This document shows, one piece after another, positions 1,534 through 51,187 of a stretch of 64,000 nt of DNA (positions within the stretch are counted from its first letter, which is position 1; the number at the start of each line of letters is the position of its first letter). This DNA is from Bacteroidales bacterium. GTDB taxonomy: Bacteria > Bacteroidota > Bacteroidia > Bacteroidales > F082. The DNA lies in contig JAFGXS010000082.1 in assembly GCA_016936505.1 (NCBI GenBank), positions 1 to 64,000 on the forward strand. The letters are read 5' to 3'. The notes under the pieces are model-generated. The model ran no database searches. It saw only the letters and a program-made list of their open reading frames with translations, and was not told where the DNA came from. The position numbers and the translations under genes are program-made.

Positions 1534-1565
1534 AAATAAATTGACAACATAATAAACTAAATATC

Positions 1566-1730
1566 ATGAAACAAGGAGAACACAGAACCATAGCTTACTC
1601 TGAAGAATCCTATCCTCCCATGCCAACCAAAGCTACTTTGTTTTGGAGACGTTTCTGGCCCTATCAGGCTTGGCGCTGGGTAGTCTTAAATATAAAGATC
1701 CTCAGAATTGTAGTTGGGGGCCACTCATAA
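1566..1730 (+). CDS. Small Trp/Arg-rich protein downstream of SQR (54 aa)
   Basis: This short reading frame begins with ATG and ends at TAA 1728-1730. The N-terminal half is hydrophilic with a YPPMP stretch. The C-terminal half has four tryptophans (W27, W31, W36, W38) interleaved with arginines (LFWRRFWPYQAWRW), followed by a short hydrophobic run (LNIKILRIVVGG). That pattern suggests a peptide lying at the membrane surface. It sits 32 bp after the SQR gene and ends before the hairpin terminator at 1766, so it is probably co-transcribed with SQR and could be an accessory or anchor for it; that role is inference from position only. No family is recognised. Confidence 0.55.
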   Translation: MKQGEHRTIAYSEESYPPMPTKATLFWRRFWPYQAWRWVVLNIKILRIVVGGHS

Positions 1731-1765
1731 TGATTCTTTGACAATTACACTTATTGAACCAAATA

Positions 1766-1802
1766 AAAAACCCTTTCTGTCTTCACGACCGGAAGGGTTT
1801 TT
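1766..1802 (+). terminator. Rho-independent terminator after the SQR unit
   Basis: An A-rich left arm reading AAAAACCCTTTC pairs with GGAAGGGTTTTT, 12 bp with one G-U pair and a 13-nt loop, followed by a T-rich run. It closes the SQR/small-protein unit. It ends one base before the queA -7 promoter element at 1804. Confidence 0.8.
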
Positions 1803-1803
1803 C

Positions 1804-1811
1804 TATTTTTG
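1804..1811 (+). promoter_or_regulatory. Bacteroidota -7 element (TATTTTTG) for queA
   Basis: Exact match to the Bacteroidota -7 consensus TAnnTTTG, directly after the preceding terminator. The queA ATG lies only 8 nt further on, so the transcript would have almost no leader. No clear -33 TTTG is seen. Confidence 0.55.
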
Positions 1812-1819
1812 CAAACCAA

Positions 1820-3052
1820 ATGAAAAGCATGAACATCACATCATTAAGCATTGAAGACTTTAACTACCCTCTGCCGGACGAACGCATAGCTAAATACCCT
1901 ATAGCGCAACGCGATCAATCCAAACTACTTTCATACAATAACGGACAGATCTCGGAGCATCGCTTTTTCGAAATTCCTGAACTTTTGCCTGAAAATACAC
2001 TACTTGTTTTTAACGAAACCCGTGTCATTCAGGCTCGATTGCTGTTTAGAAAAGAAACAGGTGCACAGATTGAACTTTTTTGTCTGGAACCTGTTGAACC
2101 GGTAAACGATTTTCAGCTAGCCATGCAACAACAATCACCTGTCACCTGGAAGTGTATGGTCGGCAATGCAAAAAAATGGAAGTCCGGAAAAATTGCCGCT
2201 ACTTTACACATCAATAATAAGAAAGTGCAGCTTTTTGCAGAAAAAAAAGAAAAGCTCAGCGATGCTTTCTTGGTAGAATTTTCATGGGAACCAAAAGAAG
2301 TTGATTTTCTTTCAATTTTAGAAACGGCAGGATTAACACCCTTGCCACCATATCTTCATCGACAGGCAGAAACTTCCGATAAAGAACGTTACCAGACCGT
2401 TTTTGCAAAACTGAACGGTTCTGTAGCAGCTCCAACAGCCGGACTGCATTTTACCGATGATTTATTGAAACAAATTGCTGATAAAGGTATTCGCTCCGAA
2501 AAACTGATTTTGCATGTAGGTGCCGGAACTTTTAAACCCGTATCAGAAGAAAAAGTAGTTGACCATGAAATGCATACTGAAAAAATCAGAGTTCCGATTC
2601 AAACCCTGAAAAATCTGCACCAGGCTGATAACAAAATAATTATACCCGTTGGAACCACATCTATGCGCAGCTTGGAGAGTTTATTTTGGATGGCATTGAA
2701 TAAACTTCATGGTAAAGAAAATTACACCATTATTGAGCAATGGGCACCTTATCAAACGGAGATTCCTGAAGGGTTCACTACAAAAAAAGCTTTAAAAGTG
2801 CTGATTGAGGCATTGGAAACAGAACAAAAAGACACACTCGATGGCGCAACACAAATGATTATTGTTCCGAGTTATCAATATCGGTTTGCACAAGGGCTTA
2901 TTACCAATTTTCACCAACCAAAAAGTACACTATTATTATTGGTAGCTGCGATGGTAGGAGATGACTGGAAAAAAGCCTATGATTTTGCTTTGAATAATAA
3001 CTTTCGTTTTCTGAGTTACGGAGACAGCTGCCTTTTCCTGCCCAGAAGGTAG
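1820..3052 (+). CDS. queA: S-adenosylmethionine:tRNA ribosyltransferase-isomerase
   Basis: QueA transfers and isomerises the ribose of SAM onto 7-aminomethyl-7-deazaguanine at position 34 of tRNA, making epoxyqueuosine. Family features include the N-terminal DFNYPLPDERIAKYP segment, the LLVFNETRVIQARL region, the SVAAPTAGLHFT motif, the LHVGAGTFKPV stretch and the C-terminal TNFHQPKSTLLLLVAA. At 410 residues it is longer than the ~350 of proteobacterial QueA, with extra sequence around residues 90-150 and near residue 300, as I would expect of Bacteroidota members. The frame is open upstream to 1754 through the terminator, so the first ATG at 1820, just after the -7 element, is chosen; the ATG at 1829 is an alternative. 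Confidence 0.93.
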   Translation: MKSMNITSLSIEDFNYPLPDERIAKYPIAQRDQSKLLSYNNGQISEHRFFEIPELLPENTLLVFNETRVIQARLLFRKETGAQIELFCLEPVEPVNDFQLAMQQQSPVTWKCMVGNAKKWKSGKIAATLHINNKKVQLFAEKKEKLSDAFLVEFSWEPKEVDFLSILETAGLTPLPPYLHRQAETSDKERYQTVFAKLNGSVAAPTAGLHFTDDLLKQIADKGIRSEKLILHVGAGTFKPVSEEKVVDHEMHTEKIRVPIQTLKNLHQADNKIIIPVGTTSMRSLESLFWMALNKLHGKENYTIIEQWAPYQTEIPEGFTTKKALKVLIEALETEQKDTLDGATQMIIVPSYQYRFAQGLITNFHQPKSTLLLLVAAMVGDDWKKAYDFALNNNFRFLSYGDSCLFLPRR

Positions 3053-3084
3053 AAGTTCATTACTTTGTGAAAAAATATCATTAG

Positions 3085-3118
3085 TTTTTTGATAACTTCA
3101 CAATGATTTGTAGCTTTG
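3085..3118 (+). promoter_or_regulatory. Full Bacteroidota promoter (-33/-7) for the acyl-CoA ligase
   Basis: TTTTTTG at 3085-3091 and TAGCTTTG at 3111-3118 are separated by exactly 19 nt, matching the TTTG-N19-21-TAnnTTTG consensus. It is the best two-box promoter found in the window and lies 28 nt before the ATG at 3147. Confidence 0.75.
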
Positions 3119-3146
3119 GGGAAATTAACCTCAAAACTCACCCGTT

Positions 3147-4916
3147 ATGAAAGAAATGAGCCACGATGCGCAAAAGTTTTACAACCTGCGCAATTTTCTT
3201 CTGAATGTTAAAAATTATAATGAAGCTGTGGAAGACTTTCGCTGGCCACGCATTACAAAATTCAATTGGGCATTAGATTATTTCGATAAGATTGCTGAAG
3301 GGAATGATAAAACAGCCCTCATCTTTGCTGATGTTGAAGGAAATGAAGAATACATCAGTTTTGATGAAATGCGAAAGCGTTCCAACAGAGTAGCCAACTT
3401 TTTAAACGACCTTGGACTCCAAAAAGGCGATCGTGTTATGCTGATGATGGATACTTCTGTTGAAATTTTTGAATTGTTTCTTGGTATTATGAAAGCCGGA
3501 GGTGCCATTATTCCTGCCTCTACCCTGCTATCCCCTACCGATGTTTCTGACCGGATTATTAGTGGAGAAGTTAAATTTGTTGTAGCTCATCATCCTTATG
3601 TTGAACGAGTTGACCAGGCAGGAGATACTTTAAACAGGTTAACAGGAATGATTTGTGTGAAACCAGAAAAACAAGACTGTAACTGTGAAAAACAAGATAA
3701 TATGCCCTGTTGGGTTGACTATTACGACCACTTACGATATGAAGATTCCTTTGAATCCAACTTTATCACATTTTCCAGCGATATGATGTTCTTGTTCTTT
3801 ACTTCAGGGACAACCTCCAAACCGAAGCTTGTCATGCATTCACATCATTATCCAGTTGGACATTTAACTACCATGTACTGGCTCGATTTAAAACCTGATG
3901 ACGTGCATTATAATATTAGTTCACCAGGCTGGGCAAAATTTATCTGGAGTAGTTTCTTTGCACCCTGGAATGCAGGTTGTACAGCCTTCACTTTAAAATA
4001 CAGTCAATTTAATGCCAGCCAGGTTTTGGATGCAATGGAAAAACACAAAATCACCAGTTTATGTGCCCCACTGAGCGTATGGAAATTATTTGGTCAGGAG
4101 GATTTTTCAAAATACAATTTTGCATTAAAGAAAATGGTCAGCGCAGGGGAGCCTGTCAATCCTGAAATCAGTAAAATGGCTGAAAAGTTAACAGGTATTC
4201 AACTTCGTGAAGGATATGGCCAGACTGAAACCACTGCCCTAATTGGCACTTTTCCGGGACAAAAAACCAAACCGGGTTCCATAGGAAAAGTTGCTCCCGG
4301 ATACGAGGTTAAAATTTTAGATGCAAAACTCGATGAAGTTGAACCAGGTAAAGATGGACAAATTTGTGTGGCAACCTATCCTGTTAAACCACAGGGATTA
4401 TTAACCGCTTATGAAGATTCGGCACGAAACAAAGATATTTTCAAAGGGGGCTGGTACCTCACCGGTGATACAGCTTACCGCGATGATGAAGGTAACTTTC
4501 ACTTTGTAGGAAGAGTTGACGACGTGTTCAAAAGCCTGGATTATCGAATTAGCCCGTTTGAGGTGGAAAGTGAGATCATTGAACATCCCGCCATTATGGA
4601 AGTAGGGGTGATTCCAACGAAGGATGAAAAAGAGCGCATTGTTCCCAAAGCTTTCATTGTATTGAATCCTGAATACAATGCCAATCGGAAAATGGCTTTG
4701 GAAATTTTCCGGTTTATCCGCGATAATATGGCCCCATATAAAAGGCCCCGCTCTTTGGAATTTATGGATGAATTTCCTAAAACAATAAGCGCTAAAGTTA
4801 TGAGAAAAGATTTACGGGCTTATGATGAGGAATTAAAAAAACAAGGCTCAAAAGGAGCTCATGAATTTTATGAACAAGAATTTGCCAAAGAACTGAATCT
4901 TCGCAAAAGAAAGTAA
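3147..4916 (+). CDS. AMP-binding acyl-CoA ligase (medium-chain/acetyl-CoA synthetase type)
   Basis: Adenylate-forming enzyme that activates a carboxylic acid with ATP and joins it to CoA. The ATP-binding loop is FFTSGTTSKPK (near residue 216). The GYGQTET motif, the TGD motif with a conserved following region (TGDTAYRDDEGNFHFVGRVDD) and the C-terminal lysine loop (PKTISAKVMRKDLR) are all present. Its 589 residues and N-terminal layout resemble medium-chain acyl-CoA ligases (ACSM type) rather than long-chain FadD. The substrate cannot be told from sequence; butyrate, propionate or an aromatic acid are all possible. It has its own promoter and a terminator behind it, so it is a single-gene unit. 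Confidence 0.85.
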   Translation: MKEMSHDAQKFYNLRNFLLNVKNYNEAVEDFRWPRITKFNWALDYFDKIAEGNDKTALIFADVEGNEEYISFDEMRKRSNRVANFLNDLGLQKGDRVMLMMDTSVEIFELFLGIMKAGGAIIPASTLLSPTDVSDRIISGEVKFVVAHHPYVERVDQAGDTLNRLTGMICVKPEKQDCNCEKQDNMPCWVDYYDHLRYEDSFESNFITFSSDMMFLFFTSGTTSKPKLVMHSHHYPVGHLTTMYWLDLKPDDVHYNISSPGWAKFIWSSFFAPWNAGCTAFTLKYSQFNASQVLDAMEKHKITSLCAPLSVWKLFGQEDFSKYNFALKKMVSAGEPVNPEISKMAEKLTGIQLREGYGQTETTALIGTFPGQKTKPGSIGKVAPGYEVKILDAKLDEVEPGKDGQICVATYPVKPQGLLTAYEDSARNKDIFKGGWYLTGDTAYRDDEGNFHFVGRVDDVFKSLDYRISPFEVESEIIEHPAIMEVGVIPTKDEKERIVPKAFIVLNPEYNANRKMALEIFRFIRDNMAPYKRPRSLEFMDEFPKTISAKVMRKDLRAYDEELKKQGSKGAHEFYEQEFAKELNLRKRK

Positions 4917-4922
4917 TTTGAT

Positions 4923-4951
4923 AAGCCTGACTGACGCCAGGCTTTTGTTTT
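4923..4951 (+). terminator. Terminator after the acyl-CoA ligase
   Basis: AAGCCTG (4923-4929) pairs with CAGGCTT (4938-4944) around an 8-nt loop, then TTGTTTT. A 7-bp stem with a T-rich tail directly after the stop codon. Confidence 0.7.
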
Positions 4952-4993
4952 ATTCAATATGTTTTTCTGGCTGAAGAATAAAAGGATTTATCC

Positions 4994-5001
4994 TAAATTT
5001 G
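4994..5001 (+). promoter_or_regulatory. -7 element (TAAATTTG) for the mobA-like gene
   Basis: Exact TAnnTTTG match ending 11 nt before the ATG at 5013. It supports that ATG over the upstream ATG at 4959, which would lie ahead of the transcription start. Confidence 0.55.
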
Positions 5002-5012
5002 TGCTTCAAGCT

Positions 5013-5612
5013 ATGAAAACAAATAAAGAAGAAGTAACCGGAATTATTTTGGCCGGAGGCAAAAGCAGCCGGATGGGCAAAGATAAAGGACTGTGTGATT
5101 TCAACGGAAAGGCTTTGGTTTCTTATGCCATTGAAACGCTGAAACCACTTTGTGGAACTCTGATGATTTCAGCCAATTATTTTCCTGAAAAATACACAGA
5201 ATACGGTCTTCCTGTCGTTGCTGATGATGTGAAAAATATTGGGCCGATGGGGGGGATTCTGACTTGTCTGAGAAAATCTCAAACCCAGCATAATTTGGTG
5301 TTATCCTGTGATACTCCTTTCGTTACCACAAAAGTCTTTCAAAAATTACTTGATGCTGTGGAAAAAGATCAGGTTGTAGCTCCGGTACACCACACTTTTC
5401 TGTTAGAACCTTTAAGTGCATATTATAATACAAATGTAATTAACGACATGGAGCATGCCATTAAAAGTGGTAATTATAAAATGATGGACTTCATGAAATC
5501 TGTTCGTTTTAAAAGCCTGGATATTGAGCATCTTCCATTTTTTTCAGAATATTTGTTTCTCAACCTAAACAGTCCCCAGGACATGGAAAAAGCCCAAAAA
5601 CTGGGATTATGA
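5013..5612 (+). CDS. mobA: Molybdenum cofactor guanylyltransferase-like NTP transferase
   Basis: MobA attaches GMP to molybdopterin to give the dinucleotide cofactor of many molybdoenzymes. The nucleotide-binding signature LAGGKSSRMGKDK starts at residue 13. A metal-binding aspartate occurs in LSCDTPF, and the central VADDVKNIGPMGGI matches the conserved GPLAGI-type loop. The product is 199 residues, the usual MobA length. The start is set by the -7 element at 4994. The stop overlaps the next gene by 4 bp (ATGA), so the two are translationally linked. Other small nucleotidyltransferases (MocA, CofC) share the fold, but the RMG-KDK motif and the GPMGGI loop favour MobA. Confidence 0.8.
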   Translation: MKTNKEEVTGIILAGGKSSRMGKDKGLCDFNGKALVSYAIETLKPLCGTLMISANYFPEKYTEYGLPVVADDVKNIGPMGGILTCLRKSQTQHNLVLSCDTPFVTTKVFQKLLDAVEKDQVVAPVHHTFLLEPLSAYYNTNVINDMEHAIKSGNYKMMDFMKSVRFKSLDIEHLPFFSEYLFLNLNSPQDMEKAQKLGL

Positions 5613-6793
5613 AAACAGGCAATCCGGATAACGAACTTTGGCTCAAAGCAGCAGTAGTTGGAGGATTGTGGGCTTCAGTTGAAATCATCATTGGTAGTTT
5701 TTTACACAATACACGAATACCTTTTGCAGGATCTATTCTGGCTTTTTTTGGAACGGTTTTGCTCATTGGGTTTTATCAGCTTTGGCCCCATCGCGGACTT
5801 ATCATTAGAGCGGGTTTTATCACAGCTTTGATGAAATCCGTCTCACCCAGTGCTATCATTTTAGGTCCCATGACCGGAATTTTCATGGAAGCCTTGCTTA
5901 TTGAACTTTTCATTTTGATGCTTGGAAATAATTTGGTTTCCTATGCTGTTTCAGGAGTGTTTAGCTTGTCCAGCGCACTGTTACACAAAATCATCAGCAT
6001 CATTATTGTTTATGGCTTCAACATTGTAACGATTTATGTAAATATCATCAATTTCGGACTGAAACAATTGGGAATTGATGCAGCTTCTGACATTCAAATT
6101 CTAGCAGCTTTGCTTGTTGTTTATTTTGTTGCGGGTTCAGTTGCCGGCTTGTTGGGATTTTTGATAGGTAAAAAAGCATTAAACATAAAAACTACTGAAG
6201 TTTTTATAGCTGACTTTAAAAAACATAACCGGGAATTTTTTTCAGTGGATGAAACTCAAAGAACATCACTTTGGCTGTTAATTATTCATATACTTTCTAT
6301 TCCTTTGGGGCTTTTTTTGGTTAACAGTTCGTTGAAAAATGAAGGTTTTGTTTTTATAGGATTATATCTCATCGTTACAGGTTTCTTTTACAGGAAAACC
6401 TTGCGAAGGCTTCGTAAACCGGTTTTCTGGTCGCAATTACTGATTATTGTTTTACTGTCGGCCCTGTTTTGGGATATTGGAAAAGCAGACCACCATTGGA
6501 TTAGTGAAAAAGGTTTTTTCATTGGACTGGAAATGATGATACGGGCACTGTTTATTATTGCGGCTTTTTCTGCACTAAGTGTTGAGTTAAGAAACAAACA
6601 TATACGGCTGTTCATCACGCACATTGGTTTCGGAAGATTTTACCACGGACTTGAACTGGCATTTGGGGCTTTACCTGTAATGATTTCCTTACTTCCTTCT
6701 TCAAAAGAAATCCTGCGTTCACCCATGCGTTCACTGTTGAAACCATTGATAATGGCTGATCAGTGGCTTGAGTTTTTCAGGAATGAAAAGTAA
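5609..6793 (+). CDS. Polytopic membrane protein linked to mobA
   Basis: About ten hydrophobic segments across 394 residues. The N-terminal part (roughly residues 10-115, with the stretch SPSAIILGPMTGIF) resembles the substrate-binding S component of ECF transporters. Residues 125-190 carry two more long hydrophobic stretches. After a hydrophilic stretch (residues 195-220) the C-terminal half has four or five further segments and ends in a cytoplasmic-looking tail. I do not recognise a named family. Four-base overlap with the mobA-like gene suggests a joint role, for example uptake of molybdate, a pterin or another cofactor precursor; this is inference. The 3' end overlaps the convergent menD gene by 34 bp. 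Confidence 0.6.
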   Translation: MKTGNPDNELWLKAAVVGGLWASVEIIIGSFLHNTRIPFAGSILAFFGTVLLIGFYQLWPHRGLIIRAGFITALMKSVSPSAIILGPMTGIFMEALLIELFILMLGNNLVSYAVSGVFSLSSALLHKIISIIIVYGFNIVTIYVNIINFGLKQLGIDAASDIQILAALLVVYFVAGSVAGLLGFLIGKKALNIKTTEVFIADFKKHNREFFSVDETQRTSLWLLIIHILSIPLGLFLVNSSLKNEGFVFIGLYLIVTGFFYRKTLRRLRKPVFWSQLLIIVLLSALFWDIGKADHHWISEKGFFIGLEMMIRALFIIAAFSALSVELRNKHIRLFITHIGFGRFYHGLELAFGALPVMISLLPSSKEILRSPMRSLLKPLIMADQWLEFFRNEK

Positions 6794-8448
6794 TCGCGCA
6801 AAAACTTTGCATTTTCCTTACCAGGAGTAAAAACTTCCAGCAAGGCAGGCTGAGATAAATCCTGATAGAATTCAGGTAAGACCTTTTCCAAGTCATTTTG
6901 ATTCTTAGCTTTGAAATATTTCACATCAAAAGCTTCAGCAACTTTTTCTGCTTTCCAAGAATGCGTTGCTTCAAAAAAAGGTTCAAGTTGTTCCGTGGTA
7001 TCCGGTCCGGGAATAAAACGGAATATTCCACCGCCACCATTATTAATGACAATAATCTTCAGGTTACCTTTTAGGTGACGATTCAATAAAGCATTAGAAT
7101 CATAAAAAAATCCCAAATCACCTGTAATAATCGTATTGGTTTTTTCACTTTTCAATGCAAAACCAGCAGCTGTAGAAACTTGTCCGTCAATACCGCTTAC
7201 TCCGCGATTGGAATAATATTCAAATTTCTTATTACTACCAAAAAGTTGAGAGTAGCGGACAGGTGTGCTGTTTCCTAGATGTAGAACACTATTTTCAGGC
7301 AAGTTTTGCAACAACAACTCAAAAACTTTCAGGTCAGAATATGGAACCTTTTGCAAATACTCAGCCCTTAATTCTGTTACACGTTTTTTTAATTTTAACC
7401 ATAGTTTTCCAAAATTACCCGGAATATTTTTTAGTTCTTCGGAAATGGAAGAAAGAAAATCCATTGGCGAAGCGGAAACCAAATGAGAAAGCGCAAAAAA
7501 TGTATCCACTTTTTCACTCGATGGTGACAAATGCCAGTGTTGTTCAGGTTTATGATCGCGCAGATATTTCTTTATCTTTTTTGAAACGATAGCCCCACCG
7601 GTTGTGATCAGTAATTGTGGAGCATATTCAGCTTCCTCACCTTCAGGAATAACAGTCAGAACATTATCAATACAATCAATCAAATGCTCATCATTCAAAT
7701 TGGAAGTGGTTTCAGTCATCACCACTACCTGCTCCATCTTTGCAAACTCAGATAGTAAAACTTCCATTTCTCGAGAAGGGTTTGCCTGCCCCGAAAGAAT
7801 CAAAATCTTTTTACCTGAGTTCCACGATTCAATAAACTCCTTCCATAACTGCTCCGGAATTACAGATAAAGGTTCAGCAGTATTTTCAACCTTTCCTTCT
7901 CGGCTTTTTTCAGTAGTCCCGTATATTGGTTCATCCAAAGGTATATTAATGTGAACCGGTCCGGGTTCCGGATATAGACAAGCATCAATCGCTTCGTTAA
8001 TTATATGATTGGCTTTAGAAAAATCATTATCACTTTCAATATTCAGCGGAAGCGTGAAACTTTTTTTTATGTAAGAAGCAAATATATTTTCCTGACGAAT
8101 GGTTTGTCCGTCTCCAATATCAATCATATGCGGCGGACGGTCAGCTGTGAGTACCAGCAACGGTATTTTTTGATAATATGCCTCAGAAATTGCAGGAGCA
8201 TAATTCAAAACCGCACTTCCGGAAGTACAGGTTATAGCTACAGGTTTTTCTGTTTGTTGTGCCATGCCCAGAGCAAAAAAAGCCGCACTTCGCTCGTCAA
8301 CAACAGTGTAGGCATTCACGTCTTTGTTTCCTCCAAAAGCTATAATCAGGGGGGCATTTCTGGAACCGGGAGAGATAACGATGTCTGTAAGTCCTTTTTT
8401 CACAAAAAGGTCAGCCAACAGGCTGACAGTTTTTTTGTCGCTTGTCAT
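6760..8448 (-). CDS. menD: 2-succinyl-5-enolpyruvyl-6-hydroxy-3-cyclohexene-1-carboxylate synthase
   Basis: MenD is a thiamine-diphosphate enzyme that joins 2-oxoglutarate to isochorismate in menaquinone synthesis. The N-terminal domain shows DIVISPGSRNAPL and the cofactor-activating glutamate in DERSAAFFALG. The diphosphate/Mg site is GDLGFFYDSNALLN in the C-terminal domain. At 562 residues it has normal length. Its ATG overlaps the stop of menF by 4 bp, and its 3' end runs 34 bp into the oppositely oriented membrane protein gene. Confidence 0.95.
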   Translation of the reverse strand: MTSDKKTVSLLADLFVKKGLTDIVISPGSRNAPLIIAFGGNKDVNAYTVVDERSAAFFALGMAQQTEKPVAITCTSGSAVLNYAPAISEAYYQKIPLLVLTADRPPHMIDIGDGQTIRQENIFASYIKKSFTLPLNIESDNDFSKANHIINEAIDACLYPEPGPVHINIPLDEPIYGTTEKSREGKVENTAEPLSVIPEQLWKEFIESWNSGKKILILSGQANPSREMEVLLSEFAKMEQVVVMTETTSNLNDEHLIDCIDNVLTVIPEGEEAEYAPQLLITTGGAIVSKKIKKYLRDHKPEQHWHLSPSSEKVDTFFALSHLVSASPMDFLSSISEELKNIPGNFGKLWLKLKKRVTELRAEYLQKVPYSDLKVFELLLQNLPENSVLHLGNSTPVRYSQLFGSNKKFEYYSNRGVSGIDGQVSTAAGFALKSEKTNTIITGDLGFFYDSNALLNRHLKGNLKIIVINNGGGGIFRFIPGPDTTEQLEPFFEATHSWKAEKVAEAFDVKYFKAKNQNDLEKVLPEFYQDLSQPALLEVFTPGKENAKFLRDYFSFLKNSSH

Positions 8449-9560
8449 GGTGCAAAGTTCCGTATTTTTTCCAATACACTCAACATTGTACGCGATTTAT
8501 ACTGCGTTTCCTGCCATTCTTTTTCAGGAATTGAGTCAGCAGTGAGTCCACCGCCTACATACACTTCCAGCTCATTATCCAATATTTTGGCACAGCGAAG
8601 GTTTACAAACAACTGAGTGTCATCATGAACGTTCCACGGACCTAAAAAGCCTGTATAAAAAGTACGGTTGTGAGGTTCTGTTTTCAAAATCAAATCCGCA
8701 GCTTTATCTCTGGGCAATCCGCAAACTGCCGGAGTGGGGTGTAGTGCTTTGACCAATGAACCTATTTTACCTGAAACTTGTATTTCTGGTATTGAAAATT
8801 GTGTACACAAATGTGCCAGCTGACCTGCAAAAACAGTTTCCGGCCCATTTTTTTTATACAAACTGATTTCCAGTTTTTTCAGTTGTTCATCAATAAAATG
8901 AGTTACAAAAGCCTGTTCCTGAATTTCTTTTTCTTTCCAGGATAGCACTTCTCCAGAATCAGATTTTAGTTGGGTTCCTGCCAAAGCCATTGTCTCATAC
9001 GAATCTTTTTTTCTACTGATTAATGTTTCTGGGGAGGCACCACACCAAAGCCCTTTTCCCGGAAGGAAAAAAAGATAAACAAAAGCACGCGGATAAGTTT
9101 TTTCAAGGAGGTTGAAAAAATCATTCAAAGCAAAATGTTCGGGTAAATCTTCATGGAGCACTCTTGAAAAAACCACTTTATCCAGCTCGCCTTTTTGCAT
9201 TTCTGTTACCAGAAGCTCCACTTTGGAAAGATAATCCAATTGATTTATGGCAGTTGTTCTGCTTCCAAGTAAAACTTGCTCTTCAGGCAACGAATGAATC
9301 CATTGTTTGAGCTCATCTGAACTTTCCAGATTCCTTAAAAGGAAATCCGGTTCAACAAAATAGGCTTTGCCGGTAATGTAACTATCGAAATGTGCTATTA
9401 TAAATCCGTTTTTTGATTCAAGTTCGGAAATCAAAAATTCCTGAACAGATTTGTTTTTCTGAATCATCAGAACGTTACTCTCGGTTCCCGGCATTCGCCA
9501 GGCAGCAAAAGGAATGTTTTTTTTTATAAGATCCTGAAAATTGATCACTTCAGTTTTCAT
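8445..9560 (-). CDS. menF: Isochorismate synthase
   Basis: Converts chorismate to isochorismate, the first committed step toward menaquinone. The C-terminal chorismate-binding domain is clear: a GASPETLISR region, ETMALAGTQ, HPTPAVCGLPRDKA and the closing FYTGFLGPW segment. The ATG at 9560 lies 4 bp after the stop of the thioesterase gene; the open frame continues upstream only to a TTG inside that gene. The length is 371 residues. EntC-type enzymes for siderophore synthesis have the same fold, but position directly ahead of menD settles the role. Confidence 0.93.
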   Translation of the reverse strand: MKTEVINFQDLIKKNIPFAAWRMPGTESNVLMIQKNKSVQEFLISELESKNGFIIAHFDSYITGKAYFVEPDFLLRNLESSDELKQWIHSLPEEQVLLGSRTTAINQLDYLSKVELLVTEMQKGELDKVVFSRVLHEDLPEHFALNDFFNLLEKTYPRAFVYLFFLPGKGLWCGASPETLISRKKDSYETMALAGTQLKSDSGEVLSWKEKEIQEQAFVTHFIDEQLKKLEISLYKKNGPETVFAGQLAHLCTQFSIPEIQVSGKIGSLVKALHPTPAVCGLPRDKAADLILKTEPHNRTFYTGFLGPWNVHDDTQLFVNLRCAKILDNELEVYVGGGLTADSIPEKEWQETQYKSRTMLSVLEKIRNFAP

Positions 9561-9564
9561 GAAA

Positions 9565-9987
9565 TTATTTCTTAATGGGAGCAATAAAAATAGTTAAACG
9601 GCAGGTTGAAAGTAGTTTGTCGTGTTCATCTTTTATGTCCACATTCCACAAATGTGTGGTTTTTCCCCGATGAATGAGTTCTGCTTCGCCATAAACCCAA
9701 CCGCTGCTGGCACTGCGCACATGTGTGGCTGTTACATTTTGGCCTTTTACCAGGTATTTTTCAGAATCAACAGCTAATGCTGAACCAATGCTTGCCAGTG
9801 TTTCGGCCAAAGCTATAGTAGCACCGCCATGCAAAATTTTGTATGGCTGAAAGGTTCGTTCATCAACCGGCATTCTTCCCTTTATAAAACCATCCTTTGC
9901 TTCCAGGTATTCAATACCCAGTTGTTCCATTAAGGTCCCTTTGTTGAGTTGATTAATCTGTTCCGGACTATACCTTTTATCTGACAT
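9565..9987 (-). CDS. menI: Hotdog-fold thioesterase, probable DHNA-CoA hydrolase
   Basis: Small thioesterase of the PaaI/YbgC-like hotdog superfamily (140 residues). The family signature ILHGGATIALAETLASIGS is near residue 55, and the second half contains the usual GxVxGEAELIHRGKTTHLW-like strand pattern. As first gene of a menF-menD operon it probably hydrolyses 1,4-dihydroxy-2-naphthoyl-CoA, the step between MenB and MenA. Start at 9987 is set by the TACCTTTG -7 element just upstream; the open frame extends further but lies ahead of that promoter. A general acyl-CoA thioesterase remains possible. Confidence 0.78.
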   Translation of the reverse strand: MSDKRYSPEQINQLNKGTLMEQLGIEYLEAKDGFIKGRMPVDERTFQPYKILHGGATIALAETLASIGSALAVDSEKYLVKGQNVTATHVRSASSGWVYGEAELIHRGKTTHLWNVDIKDEHDKLLSTCRLTIFIAPIKK

Positions 9988-10003
9988 TAGGAATATTTTA
10001 GAA

Positions 10004-10011
10004 CAAAGGTA
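10004..10011 (-). promoter_or_regulatory. -7 element (TACCTTTG) for the menI-menF-menD operon
   Basis: Reverse-strand exact match to TAnnTTTG ending 16 nt before the menI ATG. The 174-bp gap to the divergent biotin carboxylase gene also holds a TATCTTTA (10147-10154, plus strand), one mismatch from consensus, as a candidate for that operon. Confidence 0.55.
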
Positions 10012-10218
10012 ATATTTTCCATGCAGTTGAACCTGTGAAAACACAGTCAGATTTTTCAGGGTTTTGACCCTTTTTTCCTATAGCTTCTATAGTTTTTCAT
10101 TTGCGCTGCAATTTCAGCATTTAAGTATAACTCTGTTAGAATTTATTATCTTTACCCCTCGAAATTCACACAAAAAATAGTTTAATCTATTCAATTTCAG
10201 TTAACTAAATCATTAGGA

Positions 10219-30829: not shown

Positions 30830-32455
30830 TCAGAATCTTTCAAACTCATCGTCAATATCATCCGGTTTACCTAAATCAATATGCACACCTGATGTGCTTC
30901 GTCTCAGGTTTCTTGCTTCGGGAAGTTTCTTATTTTCTGCCTTGGTTTTGCTTTTTGAAGATCTGCTGGTCTGTACATCCAGTTTAAAAAACGACAAGGC
31001 ATCCATCAACGCTTCAGATTGCGCATTCAGCTCTTCTGCACTGGTAGCAATCTCTTCTGATGCAGCAGCATTTTGCTGGGTAATTTCATTCAATTGCTGA
31101 ATTGCATCATTAATTTGTTCAGCACCCAGAATCTGCTCTTCGCTGGCTAAAGAAATATTATTTACCATTTGTGCATTCACTCCAATTGTAGGAGCAATTT
31201 CATCAATCAACGTACCAGCATTCTGAATTACCTGAACGCTGGACCGAGCCAACTCTTCAATTTCTGAAGCAGCTTCTTTACTCCGGTCGGCAAGTTTTCC
31301 CACTTCAACAGCAACAACACCAAACCCTTTACCGTGTTCACCGGCACGCGCAGCTTCAACGGCTGCGTTCAAAGCTAAAATATTAGTTTGAAAGGCAATT
31401 TCGTTTATAATACCGATCTTTTTAGCAATTTCTTTGATCTTTTCCTGGCTTTTAGCCGCTGAATCCACAATATCTTTTGCACCATGAGCCATTTCATCAG
31501 AAAGTGCCGATGCCTTTTTCGAATGTTCTGTATTTTGGTGGATATTAGCTACCATTTGTTCCATTGATGAGGAAACCTCTTCTGTTGAAGAAGCCTGCTC
31601 TGTTGCACCCTGCGATATACTTTGCGAAGAAGCGCTCAAATCGCGGCTTGCAACGGTAAGGTTATCAACCATTTCGAATACTTTATTCAGGGTAAGAGCC
31701 AACTGATCACGCAAAGTGGAAATCTTACGAATAACCATTCCCAACTCATCATCAGCAACTCTGGGAATTTTAACTGTAATCTCCCCCTCTGAAAGTTTAT
31801 GCAATACCTTCATGGCAATTCTGAATTTTCTCGCAATTCCGCTGATAAGTAGTGCGCCAAAAATAAGAACAACCAGAAACGCTCCCAACCCCACAATTAA
31901 ATCGTTGGTTTTTATTTGTTGATATCTTTCGCTCAAATGTGTGATCCGTTCTGTTTCCTGAGACTGCTTAACATTCATGTAATTCCTCACCTGAGATTTA
32001 AACGCATTGCTCGAATTAATAAAGGCATTCAATGTTTGCATCTTCTGATCATTTTGCCCATTATTTTCAAGCAACTGCATATATTGCTCAGAAAGCATAA
32101 GAACCTGTTGAAAATCTGAAACTATAACTTTATACTGACTATTCTCATTTTTTTCTGATAACATATTATTCTGCAACTCTTTCAGATGCACAATGCTTTG
32201 TTTTAGACCAATCATTTGATCCAAAGAAAGTTTATTATACTGTGAGATCAGAATTGGTTTCTCCACATTATCCATAAAGGGGACAAGAATCTGTGTTGTT
32301 AAACCCACGTCATATTTGTCGTTTTTCGACAGACTCTTTGTATCGTCGTAAAACACTCCAAACTGACTCAGGTTATAAAACCACATAAAGGCTATGGTTG
32401 CCAACACAAAAACCAGCATCAAAATCATCTTTGTTTTATAAGACAGACTTTTCAT
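30830..32455 (-). CDS. Methyl-accepting chemotaxis protein
   Basis: Transmembrane receptor of 541 residues. TM1 spans about residues 8-27 and TM2 about 185-207. The periplasmic part of ~155 residues looks helical, as in four-helix-bundle sensors. HAMP (~208-260) and a cytoplasmic coiled-coil domain follow. The kinase-binding hairpin tip is at ~353-387 (EIAFQTNILALNAAVEAARA), and glutamate/glutamine pairs near residues 287-300 and 463-480 are candidate methylation sites. No C-terminal CheR-docking pentapeptide is seen. It is the only receptor in the window and is encoded with its signalling partners. Confidence 0.95.
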   Translation of the reverse strand: MKSLSYKTKMILMLVFVLATIAFMWFYNLSQFGVFYDDTKSLSKNDKYDVGLTTQILVPFMDNVEKPILISQYNKLSLDQMIGLKQSIVHLKELQNNMLSEKNENSQYKVIVSDFQQVLMLSEQYMQLLENNGQNDQKMQTLNAFINSSNAFKSQVRNYMNVKQSQETERITHLSERYQQIKTNDLIVGLGAFLVVLIFGALLISGIARKFRIAMKVLHKLSEGEITVKIPRVADDELGMVIRKISTLRDQLALTLNKVFEMVDNLTVASRDLSASSQSISQGATEQASSTEEVSSSMEQMVANIHQNTEHSKKASALSDEMAHGAKDIVDSAAKSQEKIKEIAKKIGIINEIAFQTNILALNAAVEAARAGEHGKGFGVVAVEVGKLADRSKEAASEIEELARSSVQVIQNAGTLIDEIAPTIGVNAQMVNNISLASEEQILGAEQINDAIQQLNEITQQNAAASEEIATSAEELNAQSEALMDALSFFKLDVQTSRSSKSKTKAENKKLPEARNLRRSTSGVHIDLGKPDDIDDEFERF

Positions 32456-46913: not shown

Positions 46914-47594
46914 ATGCTCATCGTTGCACATAGAGGTGCCAGCGGCACACAGCCTGAAAATACACTGGCTTCATTTCAAAAAGCATTGGATGCAGATGCT
47001 ACAGCCATTGAACTGGATGTTCATGTTTGCCGCAGCGGAGAACTGGTGGTCATCCACGACGAAACTGTAAACCGAACCACAAACGGCAAAGGAAAGGTTG
47101 CTGACTTAACACTTGCTGAGCTTCAAAACCTGGATGCCGGAAATGGAGAAAAAATCCCCACTCTGCAGGAAGTGTTTGATCTGGTTCAGGGCAAAGCACA
47201 AATTAACATCGAACTGAAAGGTAAACATACGGCTAAACCCGTAGCAGATCTTATTCGGCAAAATAGTATCGAAAATATCTGGCACACGGAAGACTTTCTG
47301 ATCTCTTCTTTTAACCACAAAGAGCTGAAACGCTTTCACAAACTCTTACCCGAGGTGCGTATTGGTATTTTATACAATTATCGGCCTTTCTTTTTCAGAA
47401 CCAAAGCAAGAAAGCTCAATGCTTTTTCTATCAATCTGTCTACAAAAGTTGTCAAAGCTAAACGGGTGGAACGCATCCATAAAAACGGACAACAGGTGTG
47501 GGTGTACACGGTAAACGACCATCAAACTTTTGAGCGGGTTTCCGACACAGGAACCGATGCCGTGTTTACTAACTTTCCGGAGCAATTTGTTTAA
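46914..47594 (+). CDS. Glycerophosphodiester phosphodiesterase
   Basis: Cytoplasmic GDPD of 226 residues that releases glycerol-3-phosphate from glycerophosphodiesters such as deacylated phospholipids. The catalytic motif is IVAHRGASGTQPENTLASF at the N terminus, with the general-base His again in VIHDETVNRTTNGKG. The C terminus has VWVYTVNDHQTFERV and TDAVFTNFPE, normal for the family. Glycerol kinase and GlpD are encoded just downstream on the other strand, so glycerol phosphate metabolism spans the repeat array. Confidence 0.93.
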   Translation: MLIVAHRGASGTQPENTLASFQKALDADATAIELDVHVCRSGELVVIHDETVNRTTNGKGKVADLTLAELQNLDAGNGEKIPTLQEVFDLVQGKAQINIELKGKHTAKPVADLIRQNSIENIWHTEDFLISSFNHKELKRFHKLLPEVRIGILYNYRPFFFRTKARKLNAFSINLSTKVVKAKRVERIHKNGQQVWVYTVNDHQTFERVSDTGTDAVFTNFPEQFV

Positions 47595-47719
47595 ACAATA
47601 TTTTTTCCGGGCGATGCTTTGGCCATTCTGAATACAACAAAGGTTCAGAAAAGCGTGTCCGGATTACAAAAGAAAACAGCATTGACAAAATAATAAATGG
47701 CAGTCAGGAAAAAAACTTA

Positions 47720-48013
47720 TTGAAACCTCTCAGCAAACTGTTGGAACAAGTTAGACAATTGTTGGCGCCATAAAATGAAGTGTTGGAAGCCATCAGTCAG
47801 CTATTGGAAACGATTTGTGAACCGTTGGAGCCTTTCAGGATGTTGTTGGGTTCATTTAGCCAACTATTGGATACATTCAGAAAACCTTTGGTTATATTGA
47901 GAAGATGTTTGGACACATTGAGAAGACCCTTGGAACCATTCAATGCTTGTTTGGGGATATTGAGAAGAGAATTAGACGTATTCAGTATTTGTTTGGACAA
48001 CGTCAGTGAACAG
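47720..48013. repeat. 21-bp degenerate tandem repeat array, 14 units
   Basis: Fourteen consecutive units with exact 21-nt spacing begin at 47720, 47741, 47762, 47783, 47804, 47825, 47846, 47867, 47888, 47909, 47930, 47951, 47972 and 47993. Consensus is TTGGANNCATTNAG plus seven variable bases. TTGG is kept in 12 of 14 units, AG at positions 13-14 in 11, and T at position 11 in 13. The array lies in the gap between convergent operons (47595-48046); the 125 bp before it show no gene. Both strands have open stretches because 21 is a multiple of three, giving heptad-like peptides, but a TAA at 47771 interrupts the plus frame inside the array. Non-coding architecture or a decayed coiled-coil gene are both possible. 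Confidence 0.9.
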
Positions 48014-48046
48014 CCAACAAATTTTACACCCACCTTGCCCATTCAA

Positions 48047-49528
48047 TCAATACGCTCCATTCAAGGTCTGCACTACTTTTTTCCATTCTTCCAGTAAAGG
48101 CTGAACTTCCGTATTCTTTTGTTGGGGAGTAAACGTTCTTTCAACAGCCCATTGCTTTTCAATTTCTTCCACACCGGACCAAAAACCGGTGTGTAAACCG
48201 GCAAAGTAAGCTGCTCCCAGCGAAGTACTCTCCACCACCTTTGGCCTTTGTACAGCGGTTTGCAAAATATCAGACTGAAACTGCATCAGCAAATTGTTGG
48301 CAGCAGCACCGCCATCCACCCGTAAGGTGTCTATGGGAAAACCGGCATCCTGTTCCATGGCTTTCAACACATCGTAGCTTTGAAAAGCAATAGATTCCAA
48401 TGCTGCCCGCATAATGTGTGCTTTGGTACTGCCCCTACTCAGTCCGTAAATTAACCCGCGGGCATCAGGATTCCAGTAAGGTGCTCCCAAACCCGTAAAG
48501 GCCGGTACAAAATAAACTCCTCCATTATCTTCAACAGAGTAAGCCAGGCGCTCACTTTCTGACGAATCAGCAATAAACTGCAAACCGTCGCGTAACCACT
48601 GTACAACAGCACCTCCTACAAAAACACTGCCCTCCAGCGCATAAGTTGTTTCTTCGTTCAGTTTCCATCCCACTGTTGTAAGTAGCCGATGACTGGATAA
48701 TACCGGTTCTGAACCCGTATTCAGCATAATGAAACATCCTGTCCCATAGGTATTCTTCACCATTCCTTTATGAATACACATTTGCCCGAACAAAGCAGCC
48801 TGTTGATCGCCAGCAACACCTGTAACCGGAATGTTTCCAGAGAGCACCGATGTTTCAGTAAATAAACTGCTGTTGGAACGTACCTCAGGCAACAAAGAAG
48901 CTGGAATATTAAAAATTTTCAACAACTCTTCGTCCCACTGCAATGTATAAATATTAAAAAGCAGAGTTCTGGAAGCATTGGAAACATCAGTCAAATGCAC
49001 TTTTCCTCCGGATAGATTCCACATCAGCCAGGTATCAACGGTTCCAAAAGCCAATTCTCCTTTTTGAGCCATCTTTCGCATTCCGGGCACATTATCCAAA
49101 ATCCAGCTAATCTTGGTTCCCGAAAAATAGGCATCAATCTCCAATCCGGTTTTTTTACGAACCAGCTCTGCATACCCTTCCTTTTTCAGTCCGTTACAAA
49201 ATAGTGAAGTACGACGATCCTGCCACACAATTGCCCTGTAAACAGGTTTTCCGGTTTTACGCTCCCAAACAATTGTGGTTTCCCGTTGATTGGTGATTCC
49301 AATAGAATCTATCTGGCTGTAGCCAACACCAGACTTCTCCAGCACTTGCCTTGCCACCTCCAGTTGCGACTGATAAATTTCTTGAGCATCGTGTTCCACA
49401 TAACCCGGTTTTGGAAAATACTGGGTAAATTCTTTTTGGGCTATGCCACAAATATTTCCAGAAACATCATATAGTATGGCTCTGGAACTTGTGGTTCCCT
49501 GGTCAAGCGCAAGTATGTATTTTTTCAT
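48047..49528 (-). CDS. glpK: Glycerol kinase
   Basis: Phosphorylates glycerol with ATP. FGGY-family motifs include ALDQGTTSSRAILYD at the N terminus, the GVAGDQQAALFGQ loop and GGAAANNLLMQFQ in the C-terminal half. The 493-residue length is normal. Its ATG overlaps the glpD stop by 4 bp, so glpD and glpK are co-translated. It ends just beyond the 21-bp repeat array. No glycerol facilitator gene is nearby. Confidence 0.96.
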   Translation of the reverse strand: MKKYILALDQGTTSSRAILYDVSGNICGIAQKEFTQYFPKPGYVEHDAQEIYQSQLEVARQVLEKSGVGYSQIDSIGITNQRETTIVWERKTGKPVYRAIVWQDRRTSLFCNGLKKEGYAELVRKKTGLEIDAYFSGTKISWILDNVPGMRKMAQKGELAFGTVDTWLMWNLSGGKVHLTDVSNASRTLLFNIYTLQWDEELLKIFNIPASLLPEVRSNSSLFTETSVLSGNIPVTGVAGDQQAALFGQMCIHKGMVKNTYGTGCFIMLNTGSEPVLSSHRLLTTVGWKLNEETTYALEGSVFVGGAVVQWLRDGLQFIADSSESERLAYSVEDNGGVYFVPAFTGLGAPYWNPDARGLIYGLSRGSTKAHIMRAALESIAFQSYDVLKAMEQDAGFPIDTLRVDGGAAANNLLMQFQSDILQTAVQRPKVVESTSLGAAYFAGLHTGFWSGVEEIEKQWAVERTFTPQQKNTEVQPLLEEWKKVVQTLNGAY

Positions 49529-51105
49529 GATCCGGCAATTTCATCATTTAAAATATATTCATTGGCCAGTAAAGTATAAGCCTCAACCTGCTCTTTCTGC
49601 CAACGACGACGTGTTCCAAGTTGTTCGGCCATAATTTTTGCCACAAGGGGTGCTATTTTAATACTTTCTCTTGCATCCAGTAACAAAAACCGTGTTCTTC
49701 GGGCCAAAAAATCTTCTACCGTTCTGGCCATCTCATACTGTACAGCCCAAACCACCTGAGCTTTAACGTAAGGATAATTTTCGCTCAGCTTTTCTCCCAA
49801 ACTATGATCCTTAACAATAAGGTCTTTAATCTTAGGAGCATCAGAACCGTAATAATGCAGAGGATCATTTATATTGACATTCTTAACATAACCGTGAATG
49901 GGCATATTGGCTGTAACAGACTCTTTTACATCCATACCTGCGACCAAAATAGCTTTATCAAGTGTATCTTCTCCCATTTTTCGGTAAGTTGTCCATTTCC
50001 CACCAATAATATTGACCAGTCCCGACGGTGAAACTGTTACTTTGTGGCTACGGGAAATTTCTTTGGTTTTCTCACCCTCTTCTCCGGGAGCTGCCAACGG
50101 ACGTAATCCGGCATATACACTCAGCACATCGCTGCGCTTGGGCTGATAGGTCAGATATTGGCCTGCTGTGCTCAGAATAAAATCTATTTCTTCTTTCAAT
50201 GCACGAGGTTCCAGTGAAATGTCTTCCATTAAAGTATCAGTGGTACCAACTATTACCTTTCCGTGCCATGGAACAGCAAACAATACGCGACCGTCTGAGG
50301 TTTTGGGAATCATAATAGCCGATTCGCCCTGAAGAAACTTTTTTTCCAGAATGATGTGCACTCCCTGCGACGGAACAATTGTTTTACGGGCATTCGGTTC
50401 ATCCATTCTAATCACTTCATCAGCAAAAACACCTGTGGCATTAATAACAACTCTGGCCGACAATTCATACGATTCACCCGATTCCTGATCATGAACTGTA
50501 ACACCTGAAATAAATCCATGCTCATCTTTTATTAAACCAACCACTTTCATATAATTGATGGCAACACCATCATTATCTTCCAGTGTTTGGGCAAGGTTCA
50601 CAGCCAGACGGGCATCGTCAAACTGTCCGTCATAATAAACCACACCGCCGTTCAGTCCTTTTTTCTTTAGATTAGGGATACACTGCATCACTTCTTTAGT
50701 GCTGATGTGCTCAGAAGGTCCCAGCCCCAGTTTACCAGACATCATATCATATACTTTTAAACCCAGTGTATAAAATGGGCCTCCCCACCAATCATAATTG
50801 GGAATAATGAAAGACTGGTTACGCACCAGGTGGGGTGCATTTTGTCTTAAAAGGCCTCTTTCCTTAAGAGCTTCAAGTACCAGTGACACATCTCCTTGCG
50901 CCAGGTAACGCACCCCTCCATGAACCAATTTTGTGCTCCTGCTGGATGTTCCTTTAGCAAAATCATGTTGCTCGAGCAGAAGAGTTTTAAGTCCGCGGGT
51001 AGCCGACTCCACTCCGCAACCTAAACCCGTTGCTCCGCCCCCAATAACGATCACATCCCAGGGTTGGCCTAGTTTTATTTTTTCGAGATTTGTATTTCTG
51101 TTCAT
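49525..51105 (-). CDS. glpD: Glycerol-3-phosphate dehydrogenase (aerobic-type, FAD)
   Basis: Membrane-associated FAD enzyme that oxidises glycerol-3-phosphate to dihydroxyacetone phosphate and reduces the quinone pool. The FAD motif VIGGGATGLGCG is at about residue 20, and the GTSSRSTKLVHGGVRYL segment is family-specific. Start at 51105 follows from the position of the FAD motif; the longer frame to 51153 adds an unrelated N terminus. The 526-residue length fits. It heads the glpD-glpK operon. Confidence 0.95.
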   Translation of the reverse strand: MNRNTNLEKIKLGQPWDVIVIGGGATGLGCGVESATRGLKTLLLEQHDFAKGTSSRSTKLVHGGVRYLAQGDVSLVLEALKERGLLRQNAPHLVRNQSFIIPNYDWWGGPFYTLGLKVYDMMSGKLGLGPSEHISTKEVMQCIPNLKKKGLNGGVVYYDGQFDDARLAVNLAQTLEDNDGVAINYMKVVGLIKDEHGFISGVTVHDQESGESYELSARVVINATGVFADEVIRMDEPNARKTIVPSQGVHIILEKKFLQGESAIMIPKTSDGRVLFAVPWHGKVIVGTTDTLMEDISLEPRALKEEIDFILSTAGQYLTYQPKRSDVLSVYAGLRPLAAPGEEGEKTKEISRSHKVTVSPSGLVNIIGGKWTTYRKMGEDTLDKAILVAGMDVKESVTANMPIHGYVKNVNINDPLHYYGSDAPKIKDLIVKDHSLGEKLSENYPYVKAQVVWAVQYEMARTVEDFLARRTRFLLLDARESIKIAPLVAKIMAEQLGTRRRWQKEQVEAYTLLANEYILNDEIAGS

Positions 51106-51187
51106 GGAATAAGGGTTTGAAAAGAGTAAATTTAAACAATTATCCCTTATCAAAAAGCCAAAAAATAAGCAGGAAAAATTCGGAACT

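Follow-up and report, generated by a model that had tools for sequence, protein, structure and literature searches.

A degenerate 21-bp tandem array at a convergent gene junction, a probable member of a class of 21/42-bp intergenic arrays in a Bacteroidales lineage

Between two convergently oriented glycerol-phosphate genes of a Bacteroidales genome lies a degenerate tandem array of 14 units of exactly 21 bp, and this array very probably belongs to a class of non-coding intergenic arrays in the lineage that share a period of 21 bp, or its double, while their letters mostly differ. As to what maintains it, our tentative preference, short of calling it probable, is that a motif is kept in whole-unit register as a helically phased protein-binding site that may serve as a barrier at the operon junction. 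Neutral minisatellite turnover, in which 21-bp units are duplicated by slippage or unequal exchange and aged by substitution, with step and motif both arising from copying (for example at microhomology), is a close rival and could well be correct. Here, the window is the whole 64,000-nt stretch of DNA that was analysed, coordinates are positions within it, and the source genome and its sister species are labelled G000 and G148. The features of the junction are as follows.

47720..48013, plus strand: degenerate tandem array, 14 units of exactly 21 bp (from lag-21 identity and column counts)
47595..48046, no strand: 452-bp gap separating the GDPD and glpK stop codons, containing the array
46914..47594, plus strand: glycerophosphodiester phosphodiesterase gene (GDPD), left neighbour (Pfam PF03009, E 3.3e-50)
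48047..49528, minus strand: glycerol kinase gene (glpK), an FGGY kinase, convergent right neighbour (Pfam PF00370, PF02782)
49525..51153, minus strand: glycerol-3-phosphate dehydrogenase/oxidase-like gene (DAO/DAO_C) behind glpK (Pfam PF01266, PF16901)

The preliminary description had placed the array between glycerol-phosphate genes on both strands, and the Pfam assignments agree, with GDPD on the plus strand and the FGGY kinase and DAO/DAO_C oxidoreductase on the minus strand. Glutaminase and asparaginase genes precede GDPD. A Pfam check of eight ORFs of the region, two of which are ORFs of the array itself and gave no match, revealed no replication protein.

The 14 units at 47720-48013 follow one another back to back with no insertion or deletion, exactly as the constant 21-nt spacing described earlier would have it. 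Self-identity of the array at lag 21 is 0.538, compared with 0.262 +/- 0.026 in shuffled versions (z 10.6) and a maximum of 0.381 among 20,000 shuffles, and when all 64 kb were scanned with a 294-bp frame the top values were those of lags 63, 42, and 21 at the array (0.576, 0.575, and 0.55), the highest score of any other lag at any position being 0.401. Tandem Repeats Finder calls just the middle of the array, 47867-47942. The unit consensus can be written TTGG-N6-T-N-AG-N7, where N is a free base. The near-fixed columns are T1 and T2 (14 of 14 units each), G3, G4, T11, and A13 (13 each), and G14 (12); A5 is found in 10 units and C8, A9, and T10 in 9 each, and in the remaining ten columns the top base is present in 5 to 10 of the units. 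Exact TTGG occurs in 12 of the 14, the exceptions being unit 1 (TTGA) and unit 13 (TTAG). Of the motifs said to be kept, TTGG and AG are borne out, but the "ATT core" is not, since T11 is near invariant while A9 and T10 are each found in only 9 units. The 14 free columns are close to random, with a mean identity of 0.35 versus 0.27 expected from composition.

This unevenness bears directly on how the array is maintained. If all columns decayed uniformly, the observed spread would be exceptional (reached in 0 of 20,000 simulations), and heavy substitution without slippage of phase, another feature of the preliminary description, is confirmed by a Jukes-Cantor estimate of about 110 substitutions alongside zero indels; both results favor a phased binding site and count against neutral turnover. 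Neighboring units resemble each other in the free columns no more than distant ones do (p 0.33), a point against neutral copying. In contrast, identity in the free columns drops slightly with the distance between units (r -0.27, p 0.014), which fits local duplication and counts for the minisatellite and against the binding site.

The junction itself can be compared across relatives. GDPD is present in 26 of 172 genomes of the family and in 11 of 12 of the genus (source genome included), and eight genomes carry both GDPD and glpK at the locus. The distance between aligned ends of the two genes is 459 bp in the source genome, 368 bp in G148, and 32-82 bp in the six other genus members. The G148 gap is periodic at 42 and 21 (identity 0.51 and 0.38 over 200 bp), a periodicity matched by 0 of 1,000 Markov sequences over 200 bp, with p 0.001 over 105 bp and 0.009 over 63 bp; this array falls below z 5 in the class scan described below, its support coming from the separate Markov test. 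A 21/42 register is therefore present at the same junction in both sisters, and the same holds for a second gap, behind ppdK, where 21-bp arrays occur in the source genome (L207) and in G148 (L267), an observation that counts for the binding site. Aligned on the same strand, the GDPD-glpK arrays of the two species align no better than shuffles do (score 18, p 0.63). The opposite strand yields a single 21-bp stretch with 17 of 21 positions identical (p 0.016 against Markov sequences and 0.009 against shuffles, both strands considered). To judge from these alignments, kinship of the two arrays is marginal at best, and the inverted match may be the remnant of a shared unit, which weakens the claim that spacing alone is kept. 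The L207 and L267 arrays resemble each other by eye in A-rich stretches with AGGT (AAGGT), and local alignment of the two lends kinship no support (p 0.33).

Lagged identity (z >= 5.5 in stretches of 105 bp, with plain ORFs as gene calls) was scanned in the source genome (1.25 Mb, 41%), G148 (0.76 Mb), G143 (0.40 Mb), and 76 loci from mixed phyla (0.62 Mb). The scan yielded 10 non-genic arrays in the source genome (periods 11 twice, 21 twice, 37, 42 four times, and 62) and 5 in G148 (10, 11, 21 twice, and 42), and in the controls 2 in G143 (both of period 16) and 6 in the mixed loci (18, 23, 24, 39, 51, and 68). Removal of one 42-bp array that lies within groES (Cpn10; L298 19062-19249) reduced the 15 to 14. 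Thirteen of these 14 strong non-genic arrays have a period of 10/11, 21, or 42, one of the 13 being a tie (L298, 6.5 at lag 37 and 6.4 at lag 21), versus 0 of the 8 in the controls. The 14 include the window array and that of contig C73, both known before the scan, without which the proportion is 11 of 12, and they count two orthologous pairs (L207/L267 and L301/L283) twice. No array was found in 0.79 Mb of Markov sequence scanned. This clustering of periods argues for a helically phased site and against neutral turnover. Two points temper it: both 21 and 42 can be divided by 7 and by 3, not just by 10.5, and at z >= 5.0 the mixed control loci show period 21 (four) and period 42 (one) among 13 non-genic arrays, so that array length is not unique to this lineage. 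Among genic arrays at z >= 5.0 the period is a multiple of three in 21 of 23 (source genome) and 25 of 26 (G148), as coding demands.

The preliminary description proposed testing whether such arrays sit mainly in convergent gaps, which holds only in part: of nine 21/42-bp arrays (the G148 array at the GDPD-glpK junction excluded), two are convergent (the window array and L298), four co-directional (L207, L267, L208, and L214), one unclear (L225), and two at contig ends (L321 and L323), with no divergent location known in this small sample of nine. Some members vary between the sisters. The convergent gap between genes for a beta-CASP metallo-hydrolase and groEL is 420 bp long in the source genome and holds a degenerate 21-bp array; in G148 it measures 76 bp and has none. 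L208 and L214 are two dispersed 42-bp arrays of one kind in the source genome, and L214 is missing from the same site in G148. Arrays missing from the sister at the same site, as at the groEL gap and at a phosphodiesterase gap, are evidently dispensable, which speaks against the binding site, and gain or loss of this sort between sister species is what neutral turnover would produce. The array of contig C73 likewise fits neutral turnover, with a homogeneous 21-bp core (0.97 identity) and margins that decay in phase, like an ageing array; it adjoins DNA that shares 77% identity over 283 bp with G148 sequence located at a gene for a low-molecular-weight phosphatase (L225, L320). In G148 a 21-bp array (L321) lies behind a 5'-nucleotidase gene, and the source-genome locus ends 153 bp past that gene; the sequence there resembles units of a G148 42-bp array (L323), by raw count at 17 of 20 positions at best. 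Arrays of 21 bp occur in other genera of the family too, and in genus g11 the units are alike in three species.

Some arrays of the sisters were noted in their own right. A non-genic array with a period of 11 or, doubled, 22 and with units like GTCGGACCTTT lies at L301 15536-15735 in the source genome and at L283 2914-3113 in G148, and is conserved between them at 72% identity over a 215-position alignment. Another non-genic period-11 array of the source genome (L291 11199-11404, z 8.1) lies between divergently oriented ORFs. At L331 2730-3160 of the source genome a 42-bp array stands behind a phosphodiesterase gene, in extra DNA that by eye is flanked by copies of CAGGAATGAAA, and at the corresponding site of G148 (L332) there is a short gap in which CAGGAATGAAA appears, by eye, as an inverted repeat.

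The search for copies of the 21-bp unit itself elsewhere in the genome, suggested earlier, gave no support for them, the exact pair pattern matching the window array alone. Three successive TTGG motifs at this period without mismatch gave 9 matches in the array and 4 isolated ones elsewhere in the genome, and with one mismatch 33+19 matches compared with 30+22 for the reversed control. What recurs, in this genome and in the sister, is a 21/42 period with mostly other sequences, not the same unit. Four TTGG motifs at period 21 occur in 52 of 173 family genomes, versus 7 of 172 at period 22 and 2 of 172 at period 20, a weak control because the 52 include, among the places listed, heptamer and coding repeats. 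A stricter pair pattern gave 0 matches in 393 genomes of the order; as it also overlooked the source genome, this zero carries no weight. In plasmid records 295 matched, and the 20 of the 295 that were listed are all short (7% of the query), with E values of 2 to 6. A rotation test of kinship between units brought 5 of 136 pairs to p 0.01, where chance would give 1.4. Two of the five are g11 pairs; the others join the window unit to G144 (opposite strand, 14 of 21), L207 to L267 (opposite strand), and L321 to G144. The G144 array matched by the window unit is probably genic, as it lies inside a 225-aa ORF. By eye the window unit also resembles the G148 array behind the 5'-nucleotidase gene (GGANNC..TCAG); this pair is outside the 16 best of the 136 in the rotation test, and a pair pattern made for the likeness matches 2 of 172 genomes, G148 and, with a single match, G047, and is absent from G000.

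How might a phased binding site of this kind work? Units would be added 21 bp at a time, and every array would retain a single short motif for each two turns of the helix (TTGG......T.AG in the present case). A putative DNA-binding protein, probably abundant and sequence tolerant, might then occupy motifs facing one side of the helix, perhaps cooperatively, and the bound array could act as an insulator or roadblock at the meeting point of the two operons, if the position between converging transcripts is indeed relevant. The motif differs between arrays, so that one specific protein cannot explain all of them, which counts against the proposal. In plasmid iterons, sites for a binding protein are repeated directly and in phase, roughly two turns of the helix apart, and the window array shares with them an exact two-turn direct-repeat spacing of 21 bp. 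Unlike iterons, it has no replication gene among its Pfam-checked neighbors, lying instead beside chromosomal glycerol genes; it is also far more degenerate, and the class has no common motif. A more far-reaching version, in which the array is a regulatory or architectural DNA element set by spacing, not by sequence, is doubtful to our minds: at shared operon junctions the two sisters would preserve the 21-bp register even as the letters were replaced almost completely, because the cell would select motifs for returning to a single face of the helix. If so, the beat of such arrays may matter more than their letters. Taken together, the exact period, the constraint on a short motif at the DNA level, non-coding status, and the existence of further arrays have stood from the preliminary description, and a bend from phased A-tracts and copies of the same unit have not.

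In having head-to-tail units of at least 10 bp outside genes, the array resembles a minisatellite. With the intergenic minisatellites of bacteria (VNTR type) the class also shares a location between genes, a presence that varies among close relatives and, in one related array, a homogeneous core with fading margins. It is unlike them in that the units of the window array are strongly diverged yet in exact phase, with uneven columns, and in that the class prefers 21 or 42 bp.

Given that 21 is 3 x 7, the arrays could instead derive from the intergenic heptamer repeats common in the family, an origin that we regard as improbable. Heptamers, described with SPADE, are reported in PMC6344855 as the most abundant intergenic tandem repeats, with no known function and an unexplained preferred length, and the present arrays resemble them in being intergenic, in a preferred length that is likewise unexplained, in a period that is a multiple of 7, and in occurring in a family with many heptamer arrays. 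Two genomes of another genus in this family show, by eye, runs of heptamers directly beside homogeneous 21-bp arrays (L047 1440-1840 and L337 4746-5187), and period 14 dominates in G167. But the window array itself carries no heptamer signal (0.213 at lag 7 and 0.193 at lag 14, against 0.262 in shuffles), unlike the SPADE repeats, and G000 and G148 at z >= 5.5 have arrays of period 10/11 and none of period 14, 28, or 35. Sampling of three further genomes was too sparse to enter the counts; its 73 kb from G043 and G167 gave one non-genic 21-bp array in G043 and period 14 in G167. Locus L340 of G167 (1554-10135) is rich in heptamers, with at least seven period-14 arrays within 10 kb, five of them non-genic and two genic.

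A unit of 21 bp is also seven codons long, and in the plus frame it would read L-[DE]-x-[FL]-[RS]-x-x, raising the prospect of a living or relic gene for a heptad-repeat (coiled-coil) peptide. The features relevant to coding are the following.

47771..47773, plus strand: TAA in unit 3, closing the heptad-like plus frame
47780..48097, plus strand: mechanically called 105-aa ORF whose pattern resembles a heptad, judged a non-gene (no Pfam match; frozen synonymous sites)
47797..48042, minus strand: mechanical ORF of 81 aa across the array, judged a non-gene (no Pfam match)

The in-frame TAA at 47771 reported earlier is present, and each of the six frames is interrupted by at least one stop inside the array. 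At the would-be leucine codon the 14 units have TTG 13 times, TTA once, and CTN never, compared with 66 TTG among 302 leucine codons in 8 neighboring genes, while the wobble base of the codon that follows is random (0.02 bits), which points to constraint on DNA letters, not on codons, and so favors a binding site. The two checks suggested at the outset also came out against a gene: the difference between codon-position classes is not significant (p 0.38-0.39), and in the same gap of G148 each frame holds 3 to 9 stops. With all six of its frames interrupted, its synonymous leucine sites frozen, and the sister gap closed in every frame, the array is most likely not a gene. In favor of coding, the plus frame is free of stops for 12 units after the TAA, and its third positions are less conserved (mean 0.54 bits, versus 1.02 and 1.00). 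Across the 10 arrays tested, six have stops in all six frames, including the window array and the same-gap array of G148, and four (L214, L267, L321, and L323) keep at least one open frame, the codon-class difference in L321 reaching p 0.052. On balance a heptad-repeat gene seems very improbable.

The least credible explanation is a structural element: the DNA could be intrinsically bent, or the array could give the converging transcripts an RNA structure or a terminator. In L207, L208, L214, L225, and L321 the AA/TT power at 10.5 bp is at or above the 99.9th percentile, although in regular 21-bp arrays such power can follow from the period itself. The bend suggested earlier gains no support from phased A-tracts in the window array: its best 168-bp stretch reaches the 95th percentile of single background windows, and its whole-array power is 1.9, whereas versions with permuted columns average 4.3 (p 0.66). 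The RNA alternative found no support either: both strands of the array fold more weakly than shuffles (z +1.20 and +1.85), the 452-bp gap contains no terminator-like site, and an Rfam search of the gap gave no match up to E 1.

That tandem repeats lie between bacterial genes is already known, and they mostly serve as typing markers. Among the matches listed in a search of the open-licence literature, none described comparable 21/42-bp arrays in Bacteroidota. A lineage whose strong non-genic arrays fall almost solely at one, two, or four helical turns offers a clean test of protein platforms against stepwise copying error, and the fact that two species maintain the register at one shared junction adds to that test. 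Elsewhere in the window, a weak 21-bp periodicity (z 5.2) is seen at 30996-31132, within a 541-codon ORF on the minus strand.
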